Assembly (NCBI RefSeq): GCF_001718695.1
Contig: NZ_CP013420.1
Coordinates: 310,001-374,000 of the forward strand
Length of the DNA: 64,000 nt
Origin: Burkholderia ubonensis
GTDB taxonomy: Bacteria; Pseudomonadota; Gammaproteobacteria; Burkholderiales; Burkholderiaceae
Direction of reading: 5' to 3'
Below are positions 49,499 to 60,769 of this stretch, in pieces; position 1 is the stretch's first letter; each line of letters opens with the position of its first letter. The notes under the pieces are model-generated. The model saw only the letters and a program-made list of their open reading frames with translations. It was not told the DNA's origin and searched no databases. Position numbers and translations under genes: made by a program.

Positions 49499-50752
49499 GC
49501 TGGCGGGCGCGCCTTGCGTCGGAGCCGTGAAGTAGGGCGCCGGCGCGGGGCCTGATGCGTCATTCGGCGCCCTGCTGTCGCCCGGCAGCGGCGGCGCGAC
49601 CGACGAGGCGTCCGGCAGCGCCGGCAGGGCCGGGATCTCCGGCATCTGCGGGAGCGGGACATCGTCGTGCGGTGCGGCCGGCAAGGCCGGCGGCACCGGC
49701 AGGTTTTTCGGCACGTCCTGCAGGCTGATGTTGAACAGCGTCTGCCGCGCCGGCGACACGCCGACCTTCACCCATTGAATTGCAGGCTGGCGCGGTCCGA
49801 TCGCGACGCGTGTCAGATTGCCTACGAGTTCCCCATTGTCGGTACGCAGCGGACGGTCGATGGCAAAGCCGTTCGCCAGCGGTTCGCCGCTCGCGTGCAT
49901 CACGAGTATCGGGCCGCGGAACGTGGCGGCCGCCTTGACCAGGGAACGCTTCAGTTCGCGGAAACCGTCGCGCACGCGCGGGCGGTTGAAGCGCAGCCAC
50001 GCGAAGCGTTCGGCGCGCTCGTAGCGGTCGAACTTCGGGTCGCCTTCGAAGATCACGACCAGCGCGCGCGCGTCGCGCCGCTTCGCGTATTCGGCCGCAT
50101 GGTCGATCCAGAAGCCGTTCGCGACGATGCGATCCTCGAACTCGCCGTTGCGGCCGCCGGCCGTCAGGAAGTGATTGTTCGGCGCGGGGGCGTTGAGCGC
50201 GACGAACACGATGTCGTCGCGCACCCATCGCGCGTTCTCGCGATACGGCCGGAAACGCGCGACTTCGCTCTCGCGCGTGATCTGCAGCGTGCCCGGATCG
50301 GGCAGCGCCGCACCGGCGAGCAACGTCTGCCGCAGGAAGTCGAGTCGTTCGACCGGATCGTAGCCGCCTCCCGCCGCCGTGTTGCAGGTGACCCAGTCGT
50401 CATGGCCGGGCACGAATACGAGCGGCACGCGCGACGCGTCGAGAATTGCGCCGCGCTGCGTGTACAGCGCGTCACGGCACGCTTCCTTGGCTCCCTTGAG
50501 ATCCCCCGCGTACACGACGAACGCGAGGTTGCGCTCGCGCGCCATCGCCTCGAGCATCCGCTGTGCGGCGACCTCGTCCGCAGGCGACGCGATCACGCCG
50601 GAGACGACCGCGAACGAATAGGGCGCGCCGGCGCGCTTCGCGGGCGCAGCCTGGGCGAGCGCGCCGGAAAGTGCGAGCGCCGCCGCGGCGAGCGCGGCGG
50701 CTGCGTGCGTGAGCCGGCCGGCCACCGCGCGCTTACGCGTGCCCGTCGGCAT
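49478..50752 (-). CDS. Exported protein resembling a metallophosphoesterase, function unknown
   Basis: 424 residues with a signal peptide (about 1-36), a domain of ~300 residues and a Pro/Ala-rich C-terminus. It has phosphoesterase-like pieces (Y-A-G-D-L-K near 85, V-P-G-H-D-D-W near 115) but the typical G-N-H-x and G-H-x-H motifs are not clear, so activity is doubtful. Its start overlaps the mutS 3' end by 20 bases and its end overlaps slyD convergently. Confidence 0.75.
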
Positions 50753-53387
50753 CGTGCGACTGGGCGAGCGCGCGCAGCTCGTACAGCAGGTCGAGCGCTT
50801 CGCGCGGTTTCAGGTCGTCGGGGTCGATGTCACGCAGTTTTTCGAGCGCAGGGTGGGGCGCGCTCGGCGTTGCCGGCGCGTCCGCGCATTCGAGATCGTC
50901 GGCAGCCGGCTGCATGCTGAACAGGTCGAGCTGCGGCGTGTGCTGCGCGGCCGACTGCTGCTCGAGGTAAGCGAGATGCTTGCGCGCCGCACGGATCACC
51001 GGCGCCGGAACGCCTGCAAGCTGCGCGACCTGCAGCCCGTAGCTCTGGTTGGCGGGACCTTCGTTGACCGCGTGCAGGAACACGATGCCGTGACCGTGTT
51101 CGACCGCCGACAGGTGGACGTTGGCCGCATGCGGGAATTCGGCCGGCAGCTGCGTCAGTTCGAAGTAGTGCGTCGCGAACAGCGTGTAGCAGCCGTTGTG
51201 CGCGAGCAGGTGCCGCGCGATCGCCCACGCGAGCGCGAGGCCATCGAACGTCGACGTGCCGCGGCCGATTTCATCCATCAGCACGAGGCTTTGCGGCGTC
51301 GCGTCGTTGAGGATCGCCGCCGCCTCGGTCATCTCGACCATGAACGTCGAGCGGCCGCCGGCGAGATCGTCCGCCGCGCCGATGCGCGTGAAGATCCGGT
51401 CGATCGGGCCGAAGCACGCGGACTTCGCCGGCACGTAGCTGCCGACATAGGCCATCAGTGCGATCAGCGCGGTCTGCCGCATGAACGTCGACTTGCCGCC
51501 CATGTTCGGGCCGGTGATCAGCAGCAGCTTGCGTTCCGTGCCGAGCTTGCAGTCGTTCGCGATGAACTGCTCGACCTGCGCCTCGACGACCGGATGCCGG
51601 CCTTGCTCGATGTCGATGCCGATCTCGTCGGTGAACGTGGGGGCGACCCAGTCGAGCGCGCGGGCGCGCTCGGCGAACGCGGCGAGCAGGTCGAGTTCCG
51701 CGAGTGCGGACGCGACGCGCTGGCATTCGGGGATGAACCGCAGCAGCGCCTGCAGCACCGCGTCGTACAGCGCGCGTTCGCGCGCGAGCGCCCGTTCCTG
51801 CGCGGACAGCGCCTTGTCCTCGAAGGTCTTCAGCTCGGGCGTGATGTAGCGCTCGGCGTTCTTCAGCGTCTGGCGGCGACGGTAGTCGTCCGGCACCTTG
51901 TCGGTCTGCCCGCGCGTGACTTCGATGTAGAAGCCGTGCACCTTGTTGTACTCGACCCGCAGATTCGCGATGCCGGTGCGGGCGCGTTCGCGTGCTTCGA
52001 GGTCGATCAGGAACTGGCCGCAGTTTTCCGAGATGTCGCGCAGCTCGTCGAGCTCCGCATCGTAGCCGCGCGCGATCACGCCGCCGTCGCGCACCATTGC
52101 CGCCGGCTCGGGGGCGATCGCGTTCGTCAGCAGGTCCAGGCATTCGGCGGGCGGCGCCAGCGCGGCATCGAGGCGCGCGAGCGCGTCCGCGTTGCCGGCG
52201 ACCGGGCTGATGCGCTCGCGCAGCGCCGGCAGCGCGGCGAACGTGTCGCGCAGGCTCGACAGGTCGCGCGGCCGCGCGGAGAGCAGCGCGAGGCGGCCGG
52301 TGATCCGTTCGACGTCGGCGATCTGGCGCAGCGCGCTGCGCAGCGCATCGAGGCTCGCGTTCGCGGGCGCGTCGAGCAGCGCGCCGATCGCCTGCTGGCG
52401 CGACTGCGCGGCGACGCACGCGCGCGGCGGATGGTGCAGCCAGTGGCGCAGCAGGCGGCTGCCCATCGTCGTGCAGCAGGTATCGAGCAGCGAATACAGC
52501 GTCGGCGATTCGGTGCCGCGCAGCGTTTCGGTCAGCTCGAGGTTGCGGCGCGTGGACGGATCGAGCCCGATGTATTCGGTTTCGTTCTCGACCTTCAGGC
52601 TGCGCACGTGCCGCAGCTGCTGGCCTTGCGTGGCCGCCGCATACAGGAGCAGCGCGCCCGCGGCGCCGCAGGCGCTCGTCAGCGAGTGCGCGCCGAAGCC
52701 GTCGAGGCTCGCGACGTCGAGCTGGTCGCACAGGCGCTGCGTGCCCGCCGCGATGTCGAAATGCCAGGCCGGCACGCGCTTGAGCGCACCCGCGCCGGCG
52801 GGCATCGCGTCAGCCGATGCGTCGGCCGCGAGAATCTCGGCCGGACGGATGCGTTCCAGCGCGGCGCCGAGCTGGTCGGGCTCGATCTCCGCGAGGCGCA
52901 GCGCGCCGCTCGCGAGGTTGAGCCACGCGAGGCCGATGTTGACCGCGACGCCGCGCTTGTTGTGGCCCGTGCACATCGCGAGCAGGTAGACGTCGGTCTT
53001 GTCGGACAGCAGCGCGGCGTCGGTCAGCGTGCCCGGCGTGACGACGCGCACGACCTTGCGTTCGACGGGGCCCTTCGACGTGGCCGGATCGCCGATCTGT
53101 TCGCAGATCGCGACCGATTCGCCCATCTTGACGAGCTTCGCGAGGTACTGCTCGACCGCGTGGTGCGGCACGCCGGCCATCCGGATCGGATTGCCGCCCG
53201 ATGCGCCGCGCTGCGTCAGGGTCAGGTCGAGCAGGCGCGCGGCTTTTTCCGCATCCTCGAAGAACAGCTCGTAGAAGTCGCCCATCCGGTAGAAGACGAG
53301 CGTGTCGGGGTGGTCGGCCTTGATGCGCAGGTATTGCTGCATCATCGGCGTGACGGTTGCGGGTGCTGCTGCGGGTTGCGTGCTCAT
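50733..53387 (-). CDS. mutS: DNA mismatch repair protein MutS
   Basis: 884 residues. Mismatch-binding [11 protein letters not shown] near 40, core clamp and lever domains, ATPase with Walker [10 protein letters not shown] near 630, Walker [12 protein letters not shown] near 705 and a C-terminal tetramer-type tail. The start at 53387 lies 60-80 bases from a promoter-like stretch; the sequence around it occurs again twice further right as diverged copies. It marks the left edge of the accessory block. Confidence 0.97.
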
Positions 53388-53470
53388 GTGACCGGGGAAA
53401 AGTTGCTTTGGCCGCCCGAGTTTACCAGTGGGCAGGACCCAGCCGCTCGAAGTTCGCCATCCGGCCAGTT
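53325..53470. repeat. Copy 1 (native) of the mutS 5'-end repeat
   Basis: The first ~20 codons of mutS plus about 80 bases upstream. Beyond base 53470 the sequence is unlike the other copies. It is the reference for the two diverged direct copies at 56673-56817 and 57490-57566. Confidence 0.9.
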
Positions 53471-53735
53471 TTGTCGGCGGTGGCGAGAGACCGCTGCGTG
53501 CCAGGAAGAGACACTCGACGGAGAGAGCAAAACTATTGACGATCGCTCATCGCCGATGGCGAGCTCGACAACGTTCTTGGAATCCTGGCAACGGCGTCGC
53601 GTCCCCGAGACATCCCACCATGATGTCGTCAAAGCACGAGGTTGTATGAAATCGACGCGGTGCGTGTACGACTTCCAGGCAGTCGAGGTTGAAGGCGAAG
53701 CTGATGGGCGCGGGCCGCCACGGTGATCGCCAACC
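53471..53735. other. Spacer between mutS region and HxlR gene
   Basis: About 265 bases with lower GC than the core and no convincing coding sequence on either strand. It begins the accessory block at the end of repeat copy 1. It may contain decayed gene remnants. Confidence 0.5.
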
Positions 53736-54104
53736 TCACTGTTGCTCGTCGTAGCGCAACCGATTGTCATGAATCGCCGCACGATGAGCGCTTGCCCATT
53801 CTGCGAGTTGATGGACGGAATCCGCGAGGGATCGTCCGAGCTCGGTCAACGCATAGTCAACCTGCGGAGGCCGCGAGACGCGGACCGAGCGCTCGACCAT
53901 TCCGTCTCGCTCCAGCGTCTTTAAGGTGCGCGTCAACATCTGCTGCGAGATGCCCGACACGATCCGCTTGATTTCATTGAAACGTCGTGGCTGGTCGCAA
54001 AGCGCGACCACGACCTGCATCGTCCACTTTTCACCGATCTGATTGAAGATTTCGCTGACACCGCTGCAGTTACGTGGGTTGTCGGGCGGCGCGGTCATAT
54101 CCAT
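53736..54104 (-). CDS. HxlR family transcriptional regulator
   Basis: 122 residues with the HxlR/DUF24 winged helix: I-G-E-K-W-T-M-Q-V-V-V-A-L near 20-32, R-R-F-N-E-I-K-R-I near 38-46, I-S-Q-Q-M-L-T-R-T-L and L-E-R-D-G-M-V-E-R. A single Cys in the N-terminal N-P-R-N-C-S-G-V (about residue 12) matches the redox-sensing Cys of HypR/QorR/YodB relatives. The ATG at 54104 follows AGGA. It is divergent from the GST gene across 93 bases, suggesting control of that gene. Confidence 0.88.
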   Translation of the reverse strand: MDMTAPPDNPRNCSGVSEIFNQIGEKWTMQVVVALCDQPRRFNEIKRIVSGISQQMLTRTLKTLERDGMVERSVRVSRPPQVDYALTELGRSLADSVHQLAEWASAHRAAIHDNRLRYDEQQ

Positions 54105-54117
54105 ATGACTTGGTCCT

Positions 54118-54133
54118 GAAAATATGCGTTTTC
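54118..54133. promoter_or_regulatory. Small inverted repeat, possible HxlR operator
   Basis: GAAAA (54118-54122) and TTTTC (54129-54133) around a 6-base centre lie in the divergent HxlR-GST spacer. Short arms, so tentative. Confidence 0.3.
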
Positions 54134-54197
54134 GGCGGATGGTCACATGCCAGATACTTTGGTTTCCATTCCGTCCTCCAAGTGTTCCGACAATATC

Positions 54198-54782
54198 ATG
54201 AAGCTTTTCTATCATCCGGGTGCCTGCAGTCTCGCTGTTCATATTGCCTTGATTGAAGCAGGCATGTCCTTCGAACTCGTTAGCATCAACCGCGACAAAC
54301 GTACTGCAGATGGCCGCGATTTGCTCACCCTCAATCCGTACGGATTCATCCCGACGCTCGAGTTGGACGATGGTAACGTGCTGGGCGAAGCGTTGGCCAA
54401 TCTCGTCTATATCGCCGAGAACACCGGACGCTTACTTCCGAAAAGCGGGCTCGATCGCTGGCGTTCAATCGAAGCAGTGTCGTTCATGGCAACTGAACTC
54501 CACGGTGGCTTCAAGCCGCTGTGGAAGCGTGCCCCTGAGGCCGAGCAAACCGCGGCGAAGCAACTCTTGACCAAACGTTTTGCGGAGCTTGCTGCACGGC
54601 TTGGTGACAAGCCGTTTGTCACTGGCGGGCAGATATCTATCGCCGACCCTTATCTGTTCGTCATGTTGAGATGGGCGAGAACGTACGACATCGACGTGCC
54701 GAAGCAATTCGATGCCTATTTTGAGCGCATGCAGGAGCGGCCGTCGATTCAGCAGGCGCTGACCGAGGAAGGGCTGGCCTAA
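54198..54782 (+). CDS. Glutathione S-transferase, bacterial beta-class type
   Basis: 194 residues: thioredoxin-like N-domain (MKLFYHPGACSLAVHIAL, with the Cys10 of beta-class enzymes, and F-I-P-T-L-E near 50) and an all-helical C-domain (ISIADPYLFVMLRWA near 150). It conjugates glutathione to electrophiles or reduces them. GC and codon use are lower than the core. The ATG at 54198 gives the family N-terminus. Divergent from HxlR. Confidence 0.92.
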   Translation: MKLFYHPGACSLAVHIALIEAGMSFELVSINRDKRTADGRDLLTLNPYGFIPTLELDDGNVLGEALANLVYIAENTGRLLPKSGLDRWRSIEAVSFMATELHGGFKPLWKRAPEAEQTAAKQLLTKRFAELAARLGDKPFVTGGQISIADPYLFVMLRWARTYDIDVPKQFDAYFERMQERPSIQQALTEEGLA

Positions 54783-54874
54783 AGCCGCGAAGAGCCAAGA
54801 AGTGAGCCTCAAGACAGCTATCGAGGGCTCCGACGCACGTGGATCGATTCACAAATCAGAATTAATGTGCCAAT

Positions 54875-54964
54875 ATGACCCGCATGGAACTCCGTAACGT
54901 CCCGAACCAATCTTGTCATCATCACGGTCGTCCCCCGATGCGCCGTGGTTCGTTACGTCCATAG
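54875..54964 (+). promoter_or_regulatory. Putative His-rich leader peptide of an attenuator
   Basis: An open frame of 29 codons from ATG 54875 to TAG 54964 contains three consecutive histidine codons (CAT CAT CAC, 54917-54925) and is followed 43 bases later by an intrinsic terminator and then the HisRS-like gene. Stalling at these codons would leave 54938-54950 free to pair with 55004-55016 (11 of 13 positions, two mismatches, one wobble) and block the terminator. No strong ribosome site is seen, and an upstream promoter-like pair (TTCACA, 17 bases, CAATAT at 54871-54876) would overlap the ATG, so the exact start is unsure. Confidence 0.55.
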
Positions 54965-55007
54965 CAGGACATCCGGGATTGCAGTTCCCCTTCCTGTACA
55001 AACGACC

Positions 55008-55037
55008 AAGGCGCCTACGGCGCCTTTTTTATTTTTT
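55008..55037 (+). terminator. Intrinsic terminator/attenuator directly before the HisRS-like gene
   Basis: AAGGCGCC-TAC-GGCGCCTT (55008-55026) followed by TTTTATTTTTT ends 19 bases before the next start codon. A terminator in this position would shut off the gene unless it is regulated. Confidence 0.85.
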
Positions 55038-55055
55038 ACCCCGAGGAGGACTCTC

Positions 55056-55698
55056 ATGACAATGATTCGCGGAACACGCTTCATCGTCGGCAAGGAAGCC
55101 GCGCAAATCCGCGCGCTGGAAAGCCAATTCCGGAGCTATCTTCATTAACGTCGGAGCAGAGGAGGCGATTGTTCCGGCGTTGTGGTCGCAAGATACATTC
55201 ATTCAAAAAGCCGGGGGCAGCGAGATCATCGGCCAGATGTGGGCCTTTCCCGACAAGAAGGGGCGTGCTTGCTGCCTGATTCCCGAGGCAACGGCACTGT
55301 TTCAGGAACGATGCGGCGAGCTACTGGGCCGACAACGGGAGCGGATGTTGTTTTATATCGCTCGATGCTACCGCTATGAACGACCTCAAGCCGGTCGCTA
55401 TCGCGAATTCTCCCAACTAGGATTCGAGTATCTATCCCCCAATCCGGAATCCGCGGTCAAACGCAGCCAGGAGGTAGCGATCGGCTTTTTCGATTCACTC
55501 GGCCTTCGCTATGAAACCGATGATTCGGCCCGCAGAGGCCTCAGCTACTATCTGAACGGTCGGGGCTTCGAAATGCGCTGTACCGAACTCGGCGCACAAC
55601 AGCAAGTGGTTGGTGGCGGCGCCTATCGGGAGGGAGCCGGTTTCGGCATCGGCGCTGAACGACTGTTGTTGGCGATGACCGCTCAGGGGCTTGTGTAG
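55056..55698 (+). pseudogene. Stand-alone histidyl-tRNA-synthetase-like core protein, apparent +1 frameshift
   Basis: ATG 55056 (GAGGAGGA upstream) reads MTMIRGTRFIVGKEAAQIRALESQF-R-S, then meets a stop; one extra base near 55136 puts the rest (I-F-I-N-V-G-A-E-E onward) in another frame to 55698. Repaired: 213 residues resembling the class II HisRS/HisZ catalytic core. Visible are motif 2 C-Y-R-Y-E-R-P-Q-A-G-R-Y-R-E-F near 104-118, a HisA-like R-R-G-L-S-Y-Y near 159-165 and motif 3 G-F-G-I-G-A-E-R near 195-202. The anticodon-binding domain is absent. Function unknown: perhaps a histidine-activating ligase or a HisZ-like sensor. Confidence 0.7.
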
Positions 55699-55913
55699 TG
55701 ACGTCCAATGCCGAGGCGGCTTGCGGCTCGGGACAGTCGCAAGCTCCATATCGCCGGCTAAATGTAAATTTGCAGTGGACTCGCACGGCACATCGACCGG
55801 TCGCTTCGTGACTCATTGAAGGACCGCAATAGGGCGGCTACGGCTGGACGCATCGGGCGGATTCTGCCCAATATCGGACCTTGGATCGACGGGACCGAAT
55901 CGGCGACAATCTA

Positions 55914-56525
55914 ATGAAGCCATGTGAAACATCGACACAGGGGGCGCTGGTGTCCATCAATGGAAGCGAAACGGAAGGCACATTTCCAACGCTAACAACT
56001 TCCCGGCTGTCGTTGCGGGAGGTTTTGCCCAGCGACGCACCGTCGCTGTTCGCTGTGCATGGCGACGCTGAGGGTATGCGCTGGTTCGGTACCGATCCAA
56101 TGACCGATATAGCACAGGCCGACAAGCTGGTTCAGGTATTTGCCGACTGGCGGCGCAGTGGCTCTGGCGTCCGTTGGGCCGTCGAGAGACTTTCGGACGG
56201 GCTTCTACTTGGTACGTGCGGCCTCTTCCGATGGAATAGAAAGTGGCGAAGTTGCGTCGTCGGCTATGAGTTGGCTACGTTTGCGCGTGGCAACGGATAC
56301 ATGCGCGAAGCGCTTTGTGCCGCGATCGATTACGGTTTCGACGTGATGCAGATAAACCGCATCGAAGCCCAGGTTCACCCCCAGAACGCAGCCTCCATAC
56401 AAGTGCTGGAGACGCTGGGCTTCGTCCGTGAAGGCTATCAGCGCCAAGCGGGGTACTGGCGTGATGCCTATCACGATCTCCTGCAGTTTTCGTTGTTACG
56501 TTCTGATTGCGTACGTCGTGGCTAA
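55914..56525 (+). CDS. GNAT family N-acetyltransferase (RimJ/RimL-like)
   Basis: 203 residues. The acetyl-CoA fold is recognisable by L-S-L-R-E-V near 30, G-T-C-G-L-F near 101, the pyrophosphate-binding R-G-N-G-Y-M-R-E-A-L near 125 and N-x-A-S-I-x-V-L-E-T-L-G-F near 158. Such enzymes acetylate N-termini or small molecules, including toxins. Low GC for this chromosome. The ATG at 55914 has no good ribosome site; GTG 55949 is possible. Confidence 0.85.
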   Translation: MKPCETSTQGALVSINGSETEGTFPTLTTSRLSLREVLPSDAPSLFAVHGDAEGMRWFGTDPMTDIAQADKLVQVFADWRRSGSGVRWAVERLSDGLLLGTCGLFRWNRKWRSCVVGYELATFARGNGYMREALCAAIDYGFDVMQINRIEAQVHPQNAASIQVLETLGFVREGYQRQAGYWRDAYHDLLQFSLLRSDCVRRG

Positions 56526-56875
56526 CGTGCTGGTCGAAATCCTCTGCTTCGCCATATGAGCGCTCGCATCCGAGCGAACCGGCTGACCGCTCCGAATCGT
56601 TAATGGCCCGTCCAAAAGAGCGCGGGGCGTGAGTTTCAGCGTAGCTTTGTGTACCAGGCGTCGGCAGATAAGGCGCAGGTACTGCTGCATCATCGGAATG
56701 GCTGTTGCAGGTGCTGCAGCGGGGTGTGCGTTCATGTGACCGGGAAAAGTTGCTTTGGCTGCCTGAGTTTGCCGGTGGGCTGGTTCGGGCCGCTCGAAGT
56801 GCGCCATCCGGCCAGTTGTGGTCACTCGGTGCCAATTTCCGAATCATTAAAATCGGCTGCGGTTACTCGTTCGAT
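56526..56875. other. Intercassette region containing repeat copy 2
   Basis: About 350 bases between the two acetyltransferase genes. The main content is the diverged mutS 5'-end copy listed separately; the remainder shows no gene. Confidence 0.6.
56673..56817. repeat. Copy 2 of the mutS 5'-end repeat (diverged)
   Basis: Roughly 85 percent identical by eye to 53325-53470, same orientation, one single-base gap. On the minus strand it even restarts as [21 protein letters not shown], matching the MutS N-terminus ([21 protein letters not shown]), then diverges. It cannot make MutS. Substitution pattern suggests descent from a different mutS allele, not a fresh duplication. Confidence 0.88.
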
Positions 56876-57460
56876 ATGACGAATTTTCCTATGAAGCCTA
56901 TCCTGATTGACCTCCCCGACGCGATACATAGCGAGCGATTAACCATCCGTGCGCCTCGCCTGGGCGATGGTCGAAAAGTCTTCGAGGCGACGGTCGAATC
57001 GCTTGATGCGTTGAGAGAATTCCCGGCGTCGTTGCCGTGGGCGCTGGAAGACCCGTCGATAGAAGCATCAGAGTTTTTCTGCAGAACAGGGGCCTCTAAT
57101 TACATCGCCCGACGTGATTTTCCATTGCTTTTTTTGCTTCGGGAATCCGACACATTGATCGGCTGCGGAGGACTTCACAAGCCCCGTTGGACAGCGAGGA
57201 CCTTTGAGGTCGGTTGGTGGGGGCGAACTGCTTTTACCGGACAAGGCTTGATCACTGAGGCGGTCAGAACCATACTGGATTTTGCATTCTCGTCATTGGC
57301 GGCACATCGGGTCGAGGCTTTGCCAGATGACCTCAACGAAAAAAGCTGGCGACTATGCGAGCGCGTCGGGATGGATTTCGAAGGTATTCTCCGTCACGAA
57401 CGGATTGCGCCGGATGGCGTGCTTCGAAACTCCCGCATGTATTCGAAAATCTCGTGCTAA
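56876..57460 (+). CDS. GNAT family N-acetyltransferase (RimJ/RimL-like), second
   Basis: 194 residues. E-R-L-T-I-R-A-P-R near 20 and G-x-G-L-I-T-E-A-V near 122 mark the acetyl-CoA fold; N-E-K-S-W-R-L-C-E-R-V-G near 156 is the RimJ-type helix. It differs in sequence from the first GNAT gene. Starts at 56876 or 56891. Low GC; it is the only gene between repeat copies 2 and 3. Confidence 0.85.
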   Translation: MTNFPMKPILIDLPDAIHSERLTIRAPRLGDGRKVFEATVESLDALREFPASLPWALEDPSIEASEFFCRTGASNYIARRDFPLLFLLRESDTLIGCGGLHKPRWTARTFEVGWWGRTAFTGQGLITEAVRTILDFAFSSLAAHRVEALPDDLNEKSWRLCERVGMDFEGILRHERIAPDGVLRNSRMYSKISC

Positions 57461-57489
57461 CAGTGTCGAACTGACTGCGTTCAGATACG

Positions 57490-57566
57490 GCGCAGGTACA
57501 GCTGCATCTTTGGGGGGCCACCAAAGGCTCCGACCGACAAGCACGAAGTTCGCCATTCGGCCAGTT
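57490..57566. repeat. Copy 3 of the mutS 5'-end repeat (shortened)
   Basis: Only the two ends of the repeat are kept: about 19 bases starting GCGCAGGTA (one mismatch to copy 2) and about 23 ending CGGCCAGTT (one mismatch to native); the mutS start codon region between is lost. Same orientation as the other two copies. Confidence 0.7.
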
Positions 57567-57659
57567 GCGCGCATTCAGTGCGGGGCGCTTCCGGTCTGTC
57601 GACATCGCGTCGGATCGCATACGATTCCACGGCGTGAACAACCGAGCAGGAGATCAGCG

Positions 57660-57956
57660 ATGGAAGTCTTTTGGACGTTGAAGAGCATCCCCGAGCTGGC
57701 GAATCTGTCGGCGCGCGACAGGCGCGTCAACTGGCGACGCGCGTATTTCCGTAGCTGGCGCCATTGGCAGACATGGGCAGGTTTGCTCGCGTGCGCCCTA
57801 TGCGCGGCACTTGGGGCCGGGCTCGGCGCAACGGCGGGGCACCCGGTCGCGGGAGCGGCTGTCGGAGGCGCCGTGGGCGGATTCGTCTTCGGGCAAGCTG
57901 TGGTCCGAGTCGCGCGCGCCCATTACAGCAACGTGCTGCTCGGTCTTGACGATTAG
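57660..57956 (+). CDS. Small two-span membrane protein with glycine-rich second half
   Basis: 98 residues, MEVFWTLKSIPELANL at the start, a hydrophobic segment near 45-65 and a second near 70-88 with G-A-A-V-G-G-A-V-G-G-F-V-F-G (glycine-zipper pattern). AGGAGATCAG precedes the ATG. Function unknown. It is the first core-like GC gene right of repeat copy 3. Confidence 0.75.
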   Translation: MEVFWTLKSIPELANLSARDRRVNWRRAYFRSWRHWQTWAGLLACALCAALGAGLGATAGHPVAGAAVGGAVGGFVFGQAVVRVARAHYSNVLLGLDD

Positions 57957-58094
57957 CCGGATGACCGCGGCGGTGGTTCCACTGCGTGAGATCGCCGGCG
58001 ATTACCGCACCGACGCCCGCATGACCGTTCGCTTGCCGCTTGACCGAGTGTCGTGCGTATCGACCGACGATGGCCGACCGTCGAAAGTGCGAGC

Positions 58095-58148
58095 GCGGCG
58101 GTTGACGTAACCGCCGCACGACGCACGCTCACGGAACGCGAACGTTCC
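58095..58148. terminator. Two hairpins in the convergent gap after the FAD gene
   Basis: GCGGCGGTT-GACGT-AACCGCCGC (58095-58117) and GGAACG-CGAA-CGTTCC (58133-58148) lie between two converging genes. No T-run follows either, so they may only stop or protect transcripts. Confidence 0.4.
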
Positions 58149-58230
58149 GCTGGATCATTGGAGCAGGGCCGCGACGGCATGACGATCGACTCGGCGCCGC
58201 AGCCATCGCGCGCCGAGCCTGCCGCCGACG

Positions 58231-59853
58231 TCAGGACGCCTGCTTCGACATCAGGTCGAGCGCCAGCGCCTGCGCGACTTCGATCCCGTCGATGGCCGCC
58301 GAGTAGATGCCGCCCGCATACCCGGCGCCTTCGCCGGCCGGATACAGACCTTCGACGTTCACGCTCTGGTAATCGTCCTTGCGCCGAATGCGGATCGGCG
58401 ACGACGTGCGCGTCTCCACGCCGGTGAGCACCGCATCGTGCATCGCGAAGCCGGCGATCTTTTTGTCGATCTGCGGCAGCGCTTCCCGAATCGCTTCGAT
58501 CACGTAGTCGGGCAGCGCAGTGCTGAGATCGGTCGGCCGCACGCCCGGCTTGTACGACGGCACGACGGAGCCGAGCGACGTCGACGGCCGGCCCGCGATG
58601 AAATCGCCGACCAGCTGGCCCGGTGCGCTGTAATCGCCGCCGCCGAGCTCGAACGCGCGTTCCTCCCATTTGCGCTGGAACGCGATGCCCGCGAGCGGGC
58701 CGCCCGGATAGTCTTCCGGCGTGATGCCGACGACGATCCCCGCGTTCGCGTTGCGCTCGGCGCGCGAATACTGGCTCATGCCGTTGGTGACCACGCGGCC
58801 GGGCTCGGAGGTCGCCGCGACGACCGTGCCGCCCGGGCACATGCAGAAGCTGTACACCGCGCGCCCGTTGCTGCAGTGATGGACCACCTTGTAATCGGCC
58901 GCGCCGAGCTGCTTGTGGCCCGCGAACTTGCCGAACCGGCTGCGGTCGATCAAGCCCTGCGGATGCTCGATCCGGAAGCCGAGCGAGAACGGCTTCGCCT
59001 CGATGAACACGCCGCGATCGTGCAGCATCTGGAACGTGTCGCGCGCGCTGTGGCCGACGGCCAGCACCACGTGATCGCAGCGCAGCGTTTCGCCGTTCGA
59101 CAGCTTCAGCGCACGAACCTTGCCCTGCTCGATGTCGATGTCCTCGACGCGGGTTTCGAAGCGCACTTCGCCGCCGAGCGCATGGATCGTCGCGCGCATC
59201 TTTTCCACCATGCTGACGAGGCGGAACGTGCCGATGTGCGGCCGGCTCAGATACAGGATGTCCTCCGGCGCGCCAGCCTTGACGAACTCGTCGAGCACCT
59301 TGCGGCCGTAGTGATGCGGATCCTTGATCTGGCTGTACAGCTTGCCGTCCGAGAACGTGCCGGCGCCGCCTTCGCCGAACTGCACGTTGGACTCGGGATT
59401 GAGGACGCTCTTGCGCCACAGTCCGAACGTGTCCTTGGTGCGCTCGCGCACGGCCTTGCCGCGCTCGAGGATGATCGGGCGAAAGCCCATCTGCGCGAGG
59501 ATCAGCCCGGCAAAGAGCCCGCACGGCCCCATGCCGATCACGACCGGGCGCAGGAAGTTGCCGTGCTCGGGCGCCTTCGTCACGAAGCGGTACGTCATGT
59601 CGGGCGTGACGCCGCAATGCGGCGTGCCGGCGAGTCGCGGCAGCACGGCCGCTTCGTCCTTGACCTCGACATCGACGATGTAGGTGAGCTTGATGTCGGC
59701 GCGCTTGCGCGCATCGTGCGCACGGCGGAACACCGTGTAGCGCAGAAGCCCGTCTGCCGGCACGCCGAGCTCGTCGAGGCGCGCGCGGATGGCGGCCTCG
59801 AGAGCGCTCTCGGGGTGGTCGAGCGGGAGTTTGATTTCGCTTAGCCGTAACAT
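58231..59853 (-). CDS. NAD(P)/FAD-dependent oxidoreductase, COG2509 type
   Basis: 540 residues. N-terminal ~100 residues are family-specific; the FAD-binding GMGPCGLFAGL is near 107, with V-Q-F-G-E-G-G-A-G-T-F-S-D-G-K-L near 155 and G-E-G-A-G-Y-A-G-G-I near 510. This family of FAD dehydrogenases is widely conserved but its substrate is unknown. The start at 59853 gives MLRLSEIKLPL. Confidence 0.9.
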   Translation of the reverse strand: MLRLSEIKLPLDHPESALEAAIRARLDELGVPADGLLRYTVFRRAHDARKRADIKLTYIVDVEVKDEAAVLPRLAGTPHCGVTPDMTYRFVTKAPEHGNFLRPVVIGMGPCGLFAGLILAQMGFRPIILERGKAVRERTKDTFGLWRKSVLNPESNVQFGEGGAGTFSDGKLYSQIKDPHHYGRKVLDEFVKAGAPEDILYLSRPHIGTFRLVSMVEKMRATIHALGGEVRFETRVEDIDIEQGKVRALKLSNGETLRCDHVVLAVGHSARDTFQMLHDRGVFIEAKPFSLGFRIEHPQGLIDRSRFGKFAGHKQLGAADYKVVHHCSNGRAVYSFCMCPGGTVVAATSEPGRVVTNGMSQYSRAERNANAGIVVGITPEDYPGGPLAGIAFQRKWEERAFELGGGDYSAPGQLVGDFIAGRPSTSLGSVVPSYKPGVRPTDLSTALPDYVIEAIREALPQIDKKIAGFAMHDAVLTGVETRTSSPIRIRRKDDYQSVNVEGLYPAGEGAGYAGGIYSAAIDGIEVAQALALDLMSKQAS

Positions 59854-59965
59854 GAGTATTCGGATACGGTCGCCACGAAGCCGTGGCGGTGTTGAAACAG
59901 GCGAGAGCCGGCGCGCAGGCGAGGCGGTGGCGCGAAAAGCCGCGCCGTGCGGGCGCGGCCCGAGC

Positions 59966-60769
59966 TTACTCCGCGGCCGGCTGCAGGCGGCTGTAGCGGT
60001 TCAGGATCGGGATCATCTGGGCGTAGACCTTCGGGTTCGCCGCGACGATCTCATGACGATGCAGGAAGTCGGCTTCACCCATGTAGTTGCCGACGAGGCC
60101 GCCGGCTTCGGTGATCAGCAGGCTGCCGGCCGCCATGTCCCATACGTTGATGCCCTGCTCGAAGAAGCCGTCGAGGCGGCCGGCGGCGACGTTCGCGAGG
60201 TCGAGCGCCGCGGCGCCCGGGCGGCGCAGGCCCGTGCAGGCCTGCGTCATCTCGGTGAACAGGCGCGCGTACGCGTCGAGGCCGTCCTTCTCGCGGAACG
60301 GGAAGCCGGTGCCGATCAGCGACTCCGACAGGCGGTCGCGGCGGCCGACCCGGATGCGGCGGTCGTTCAGGTACGCGCCGCGGCCGCGCGTGGCGGTGAA
60401 CAGGTCGTTTTTATTGGGGTCGTAGACGACGGCCTGCGTGACGACGCCCTTGTGTGCGAGCGCGATCGACACGCAATAGTACGGGAAGCCGTGGATGAAG
60501 TTGGTCGTGCCGTCGAGCGGATCGATGATCCACTGGAATTCGGATTCGTTGCCGGATTCGCCCGATTCTTCCGCGAGGATCGCGTGATCGGGGTAGGCGG
60601 TCTTCAGCGTCTCGATGATCGCGTCTTCGGCGGCCTTGTCCACTTCGGTGACGAAGTCGTTCTGCTGCTTCTTGCGGATCTCGATCAGGTCGAGATCGAG
60701 GGAGGCGCGATTGATGATCTGTCCGGCGCGGCGCGCAGCCTTGACAGCGATGTTGAGCATGGGATGCAT
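59966..60769 (-). CDS. suhB: Inositol monophosphatase family protein SuhB
   Basis: 267 residues. The metal-binding motifs E-E-S-G-E near 68 and D-P-L-D-G-T-T-N-F near 83, and W-D-M-A-A-G near 214, define the family. In E. coli SuhB acts as inositol-1-phosphatase and as part of the rRNA antitermination complex. The ATG at 60769 is preferred, with a second ATG three codons in. Divergent from trmJ. Confidence 0.94.

Follow-up and report, generated by a model that had tools for sequence, protein, structure and literature searches.

A histidine codon at a candidate prfB-type +1 frameshift site in genes for minimal HisRS-like proteins of bacteria and jumbo phages

The attenuator of the enteric his operon consists of a leader peptide with consecutive His codons, a terminator, and a competing antiterminator. 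In laboratory work, starvation for an amino acid is also a long-recognized cause of frameshifting at hungry codons. A third point of reference is the +1 frameshift cassette of prfB, whose elements, as outlined in two sources (PMC5009743, PMC3711429), are a Shine-Dalgarno (SD)-like stimulator, a CUU slip codon, and a short frame-0 open reading frame (ORF). A 2016 review (PMC5009743) states that no trans-frame protein with a starvation-specific function is known from hungry-codon frameshifting.

The locus described here lies in a 64,000-nucleotide stretch of the Burkholderia ubonensis genome (contig NZ_CP013420.1, positions 310,001 to 374,000), which is called the window below; the parts of the leader and the gene given with coordinates in it are on the plus strand. 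As in the enteric his attenuator, a leader peptide with consecutive His codons is combined with a terminator and a putative competing antiterminator. Unlike in the enteric system, the gene behind the leader is a stand-alone gene for a protein resembling histidyl-tRNA synthetase (HisRS), or hisC in other Burkholderia. The gene itself resembles prfB in its SD-like stimulator, its CUU codon, the +1 direction, the short frame-0 ORF, and a product that is expected to relieve the stall. However, every one of the 83 loci has a His codon in the A site, whereas prfB has the stop UGA or UAA, and the encoded protein is HisRS-like and not release factor 2. Two further differences from prfB are that 9 of the 16 phage sites have GUU as the slip codon and that a transcription attenuator is located upstream in bacteria.

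Hungry-codon shifting as studied by Gallant and the yeast Ty1 sequence CUU-AGG-C, as covered in PMC5009743, offer another parallel, in that a P-site CUU slips before a slow A-site sense codon. Unlike those cases, the present arrangement is conserved in cellular and phage genes, includes an SD-like stimulator, and has an A-site codon that matches the likely product of the enzyme. We found no description of the frameshift of the HisRS-like gene among open-access papers, most of which were judged by their abstracts, PMC5009743, PMC3711429, and PMC2904730 being considered in more detail. One table row of the GeneTack report (PMC3711429) reads “+1, tRNA synthetase” (figure 215) under phase variation, and an overlap with the HisRS-like family is possible. 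Considering the evidence below, we think it quite probable that a two-layer sensor of charged tRNA-His controls a stand-alone minimal HisRS-like protein.

The attenuator and the split gene in the window

A His attenuator is located upstream of the HisRS-like gene, as an initial annotation made from the DNA letters had described. The leader peptide frame of 29 codons (54875..54964) carries the three adjacent His codons CAT CAT CAC (54917..54925) that would form the first-layer sensor, and its probable true start is the inner ATG at 54884, by analogy with the start in many relatives. Region 2, the 5′ arm of the antiterminator, is a 15-nt segment within the leader frame (54940..54954, codons RRGSL) that can pair either back to the His-codon region or forward to region 3. 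Region 3 (55001..55014) is the 3′ arm of the antiterminator and overlaps the left arm of an intrinsic terminator (55008..55036), which is composed of an 8-bp stem (AAGGCGCC/GGCGCCTT), a TAC loop, and a T-run. The SD sequence of the gene, AGGAGGA (55044..55050), then precedes the ATG at 55056.

The leader frame and the terminator were both found as the annotation had them, and the alternative pairing to the left terminator arm likewise held up. The best duplex between 54940-54954 and 55001-55014 has an energy of -25.0 kcal/mol, which was equaled by 0 of 100 mononucleotide shuffles. Folding of the leader RNA, which the annotation had proposed as a check, gave a z score of -2.26, with 5 of 200 shuffles as good or better. 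We found no sigma-70 promoter match upstream of the leader. An Rfam search of window positions 50000-60000 yielded no His-leader match at E≤5; the matches obtained there were isrK (weak, E of 2.2, over the leader) and ASdes (unrelated), both far below their gathering scores.

The annotation had also placed a HisRS/HisZ-like core without an anticodon-binding domain directly behind the AGGAGGA. This sequence does stand upstream of the gene ATG, but the frame opened by that ATG does not encode the HisRS-like core, which is in the +1 frame. The frame-0 ORF (55056..55148) has 30 codons, encodes a HisRS N-terminal part with an RGT motif, and ends in TTC CGG AGC TAT CTT CAT TAA, with the stop TAA at 55146-55148. 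Within this end are an internal SD-like GGAG (55132..55135) located 4 nt ahead of the slip codon, the slip codon CTT in the P site (55140..55142), and the hungry His codon CAT in the A site (55143..55145), whose first base would be skipped in a +1 shift. The +1-frame ORF (55144..55698, stop TAG at 55696-55698) is open to its end and encodes the HisRS-like class II core. The claim that the core has no anticodon-binding domain was borne out, as the protein ends shortly after motif 3. Judged by its elements, the cassette appears to be of the prfB frameshift type with a His codon replacing the stop. This putative programmed +1 frameshift at a His codon, the more novel layer, had escaped the initial annotation.

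The surroundings of the window gene include a direct repeat (53325-53473 and 56673-56820, 3347-3348 bases apart, 84-86% identity) with a third, partial copy at 57532-57566. The repeated stretch is the start of a gene that we take to be MutS-like, together with its upstream region. Because this border is duplicated, the segment with HxlR, GST, HisRS-like, and GNAT genes looks like an islet inserted beside the MutS-like gene.

Conservation of the split and of the leader in bacteria

Our starting set comprised 70 loci, namely the window and 69 relatives from genome contigs. Three relatives were dropped, two because the contig ends before the junction (L090 and L095) and one because it matches residues 131-181 only (L096), which left 67 loci with a readable junction (the window and 66 of the 69 relatives). 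These come from Burkholderia, Paraburkholderia, Trinickia, Achromobacter, Chromobacterium, Pseudomonas, Andreprevotia, Parachitinimonas, and others. Sites were located by searching for CTTCAY between 20 nt before and 10 nt after the start of the match; only L090 lacked the pattern. The register at CTT-CAY was confirmed by ungapped alignment columns.

The identical split at CUU-CAU/CAC is present in all 67 loci, which span several families. Each has a frame-0 start with an RG[TV] motif and an end of the form FR..LH, or nearly so, followed by the core in the +1 frame. The slip codon is CTT in all 67, and the next codon is CAT in 65 and CAC in 2. The junction of L102 agrees with the shared split, as do 13 further sites, some of which may come from the same strains as counted loci. 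Among 170 database proteins of the clade (drawn from the best 120 of 743 and the best 120 of 1050), none has the N-terminus in frame.

Both frames are under constraint. Summed entropies at codon positions 1, 2, and 3 are 15.3, 10.2, and 34.1 in frame 0 over the 25 codons before the site and 14.1, 8.3, and 54.1 in the +1 frame over the 45 codons after it, and the wobble pattern switches frame at CTT-CAY. These data bear on the reading of the window copy as a decayed gene, in which a frameshift would have disabled a HisRS/HisZ-like protein and the attenuator would be a remnant. Its ATG frame does end after 30 codons, and database entries hold the +1 part only. Furthermore, the core is interrupted farther downstream in L093 and L094 and is in two pieces in G025, so some copies may be decaying. 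The split, however, is not attributable to decay because the same junction is conserved in all readable loci. It is shared by several families as well as 16 phage loci, both frames are constrained, and the core in the window is open to its end. We therefore consider a pseudogene extremely unlikely.

The candidate stimulator is equally regular. The Arg codon at position -3 is CGG in 64 loci and AGG in 3, and CGG is used at the other four Arg positions in 0, 1, 4, and 3 of the 67. With CGG or AGG at this position, GGAG or a similar sequence arises four bases ahead of CTT. SD-like pairing of at least 4 bases is found at 67 of 67 bacterial sites (GGAG or AGGAG at 64, other G-rich stretches at 3), and about 10% of control positions reach the same SD score. 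Within the 64-kb window, the composite GGRG-N4-CTTCAY is found twice (0.25 expected). Among 1.1 million strand-bases from the loci of the relatives there are 66 occurrences, about as many as the gene itself supplies.

The His codon itself is the kept element. The A-site codon is CAT or CAC in all loci (67 bacterial and 16 phage), with CAC in 7 and no non-His codon in any. A change from CAT to CAC is synonymous in frame 0 only, as the +1 residue is altered from I to T; the +1 residue at this point is I or T, and once M (ATG, in L094). In 36 of 67 bacterial loci and, as TGA, in 11 of 16 phage loci, the His codon is immediately followed by a frame-0 stop, as might be seen if an ordinary prfB-like shift were set by the stop codon, with release factor and not His-tRNA being limiting. 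No stop stands there in the other 31 bacterial loci (mostly Pseudomonas, which have CAT CGA and a stop four codons later) or in 5 phage loci, and the figure of only 36 in 67 argues against a stop-codon sensor as a general rule. Moreover, if CUU or GUU is the codon that slips, it is His that occupies the A site, and tRNA-His itself, if moved from CAU to AUU, would have mismatches at two positions. A stop-codon sensor thus seems very unlikely to us.

The His codon might instead be kept for geometry and not for sensing, in a constitutive, Ty1-like +1 shift that proceeds at a fixed rate. A precedent is given in PMC5009743, where Ty1 CUU-AGG-C shifts at about 40% unaided. Against such a shift stand the His codon in the A site of 83 of 83 loci, whether CAT or CAC, its position in a gene for a HisRS-like protein, and, in bacteria, the presence of a His-rich leader as well. 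Nor is tRNA-His known to be rare, which also speaks against this explanation, and we regard it as improbable.

The leader accompanies the split gene throughout. All 67 bacterial loci whose junction is readable have a His-rich leader, with 2-8 His codons that are not always strictly adjacent (the leader of L093 includes N bases). The terminator was detected by script in 64 loci but not in L050, L052, and L082. When the antiterminators of 64 loci were compared with shuffles, 44 were at ≤5 of 100, and 20 failed to beat 95 of 100 simple shuffles. The initial annotation had suggested looking for covariation of the His codons and the alternative pairs. The His codons are kept everywhere, but the pairing arms hardly vary, and covariation accordingly gives little support. 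It had also held that homologs lacking the His codons or the terminator would speak against its reading: no bacterial shifted locus lacks the His codons, whereas the terminator was not detected in the three loci named, and the 11 phage members scanned are shifted in the absence of such a leader (see below).

Within the genus, 28 of 65 genomes contain leader DNA, with 30 places in total. Among 24 fetched leader loci besides that of the window, the HisRS-like gene follows in 7 and the histidine-biosynthesis gene hisC in 17. In these 17 Burkholderia loci (L008, L012-L027), hisC stands behind a His-rich leader with the same terminator, although the script did not find the leader peptide in L027. 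The hisC identity was scored for 2 of the 17, both above the hisC cut-offs; the other 15 share the hisC start motif and have about its length. Because this leader class is common to the HisRS-like gene and hisC, it is tied to histidine supply. An Rfam search of L087 and L008 returned nothing relevant. The proposal of the initial annotation that expression would rise when charged tRNA-His is scarce is well supported by this leader anatomy, in the 67 loci and before hisC. Its further guess, that the protein might protect against an inhibitor of histidine use, finds no direct support in these data.

The distribution of the gene is patchy. Within the genus it was found in 8 of 65 genomes, and within the family in 10 of 299; the figure for the class, 3 of 369, counts the genome of the window and two unshifted cousins. 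We also considered an operon partner as a functional clue and set this approach aside, as the neighbors of the bacterial shifted gene vary between species.

Phage loci and origins of the shift

A scan of viral contigs with the window piece revealed no relative. Searching phage records by tblastn pointed to Sinorhizobium phage Phosso, whose gene is split in the same way (GAGGT TGT CTT CAT) and adjoins the phage's own tRNA-His gene. IMG/VR scans added 15 shifted loci for a phage total of 16, of which L123 and L124 are identical in protein and 12 are on contigs >250 kb; in phages, the RG[TV] motif was used to call the frame. All 16 have a His codon in the A site (CAT in 11, CAC in 5), and the slip codon is GUU in 9 and CUU in 7. 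Re-pairing of GUU in the +1 direction entails a first-position mismatch, which counts against the proposed shift. An SD-like stretch of at least 4 bases is present at 14 of the 16 sites (for example, UGAGGAGGU) and absent in L133 and L158.

No phage His leader, sought as an ATG frame with at least three His codons in the 320 nt upstream, was found in any of the 11 phage loci scanned (L123-L133). A tRNA-His gene is located in the same stretch in 13 of the 16 shifted loci (not in L132, L133, or L140), but because most phage loci hold many tRNA genes, the proximity of one for His counts as mild evidence only. Phage contigs L118 (Phosso), L120, and L122-L167, many of them jumbo, carry minimal HisRS-like genes in shifted or unshifted form, often among tRNA arrays with tRNA-His.

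An unshifted version of the gene is present in 29 phage loci, several of which are near-copies, and unshifted relatives exist in bacteria too. The shift is thus not needed for the fold. Four loci (L145, L146, L154, and L168) received no frame call by the script and are in neither the shifted nor the unshifted count. One shifted phage locus, L141, has its slip several codons earlier (CGGAGG CGA CTT CAT) and is nested inside an unshifted clade in both of the trees that were built. The first, large tree was made without 35 rows, including the window and most bacterial shifted rows. The second has 69 rows, which are a sample of the loci, with weak support in places and long branches flagged. In this 69-row tree the shift state needs five changes, with many forks weak, and the sampled bacterial shifted rows form one side of a branch with an SH-aLRT value of 100. 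Given the different slip position in L141 and the nesting of this locus among unshifted genes, the simplest explanation is that HisRS-like genes acquired the cassette, His codon included, on two or more occasions.

The product and a two-layer mechanism

The product is about 210 aa long and, as read in relatives, has the class II core motifs, namely motif 2, RGLxYY, GGGxY, and motif 3. It differs from HisRS (TIGR00442) in its small size and in having neither the insertion nor the anticodon-binding domain, and it scores far below the hisS cut-off. The hisS model gives 97.8 bits for the window core and 115.2 bits for the joined Pseudomonas protegens product (P0121), neither reaching the cut-off of 286.75. 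The corresponding values for the hisZ model (TIGR00443) are 33.5 and 58.8 bits, which do not reach the cut-off of 271.65. Most likely the product charges tRNA-His, possibly in a special form.

RefSeq annotates one copy (L121:3938-4549) as “ATP phosphoribosyltransferase regulatory subunit”, from a +1-frame TTG start that leaves out the N-terminus. The name, under which databases list the product, would suit a HisZ-like regulator of ATP phosphoribosyltransferase in place of a tRNA-charging enzyme, and HisZ has the same fold. However, for P0121 the hisS score is well above the hisZ score even though neither is over its cut-off, and the residues of motif 2 and RGLxYY, apart from x, are invariant in 14 aligned products. 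In addition, tRNA-His is close to the genes in phages, and Thg1 is close by in one cousin. A HisZ-like role is therefore doubtful in our view, although it retains an appreciable chance of being correct.

The start chosen by RefSeq could also point to two separate polypeptides, with the 30-codon frame being a second leader peptide and the core being made from an internal start or by reinitiation. An ATG, GTG, or TTG is present in the open +1 frame before the site in 33 of 67 loci (ATG in L051 only), but the other 34 have no start-like codon there, and the first such codon common to all after the site is the family's Met, 32 codons in. The frame-0 part, moreover, encodes the N-terminus of HisRS and aligns gap-free: there is no gap across the joint when the joined P. 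protegens product is compared with HisRS 1adj, nor when a product of L029 is compared with unshifted cousins. With the frame-0 part added, the match of P0121 to hisS begins at profile position 3 instead of 32 and scores 115.2 instead of 101.9 bits. Separate polypeptides thus appear highly improbable, and the single, shifted protein is the reading that we retain. These observations further suggest that “ATP phosphoribosyltransferase regulatory subunit” annotations with internal TTG or GTG starts are misread genes.

A different neighborhood was observed in L100 (5044-6883), where an unshifted HisRS-like gene is followed by genes for a P-loop kinase (PF13671) and Thg1 (PF04446). This HisRS-like gene has a His-containing leader frame and a terminator-like stretch upstream, and the set is possibly a tRNA-His repair or charging operon. 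Thg1 was rejected as a general partner after being found in 1 of 9 genomes searched, and so the Thg1-kinase neighborhood holds for one cousin only.

We propose that the attenuator and the frameshift site act in series. In the first layer, a ribosome stalled at the leader His codons would leave region 2 free to pair with region 3, and this pairing would block the terminator such that the gene is transcribed. In the second layer, ribosomes starting from the ATG at 55056 would reach CUU in the P site and CAU in the A site, where they would be held by the internal SD-like pairing. With plentiful His-tRNA, the CAU would be read and frame-0 translation would soon end. If His-tRNA is scarce, the peptidyl-tRNA would re-pair from CUU to UUC in the +1 frame, and the full HisRS-like protein would be made. 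This re-pairing would be at least as good as that of prfB, from CUU to UUU.

The product would then restore His-tRNA, CAU would again be read, and synthesis would stop, which would constitute a self-shutting loop as in prfB. Because the same scarcity would be demanded at both transcription and translation, the result would be a steep, self-limiting switch. We infer from the sequence features that +1 shifting occurs on ribosomes, that it depends on the charge of His-tRNA, and that the product aminoacylates.

On balance, we lean toward the view that this is the first natural regulatory hungry-codon frameshift, in which an enzyme that replenishes His-tRNA would be made at full length only under His-tRNA starvation. 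The cassette would have been gained repeatedly, being stacked on an attenuator in bacteria and standing alone in jumbo phages. If true, it would be the aminoacyl-tRNA counterpart of the prfB autoregulatory loop. The loci collected here provide dozens of conserved and compact candidate cassettes that are directly assayable, and through the HisRS-like family a minimal HisRS becomes connected with the biology of tRNA-His in both bacteria and jumbo phages.
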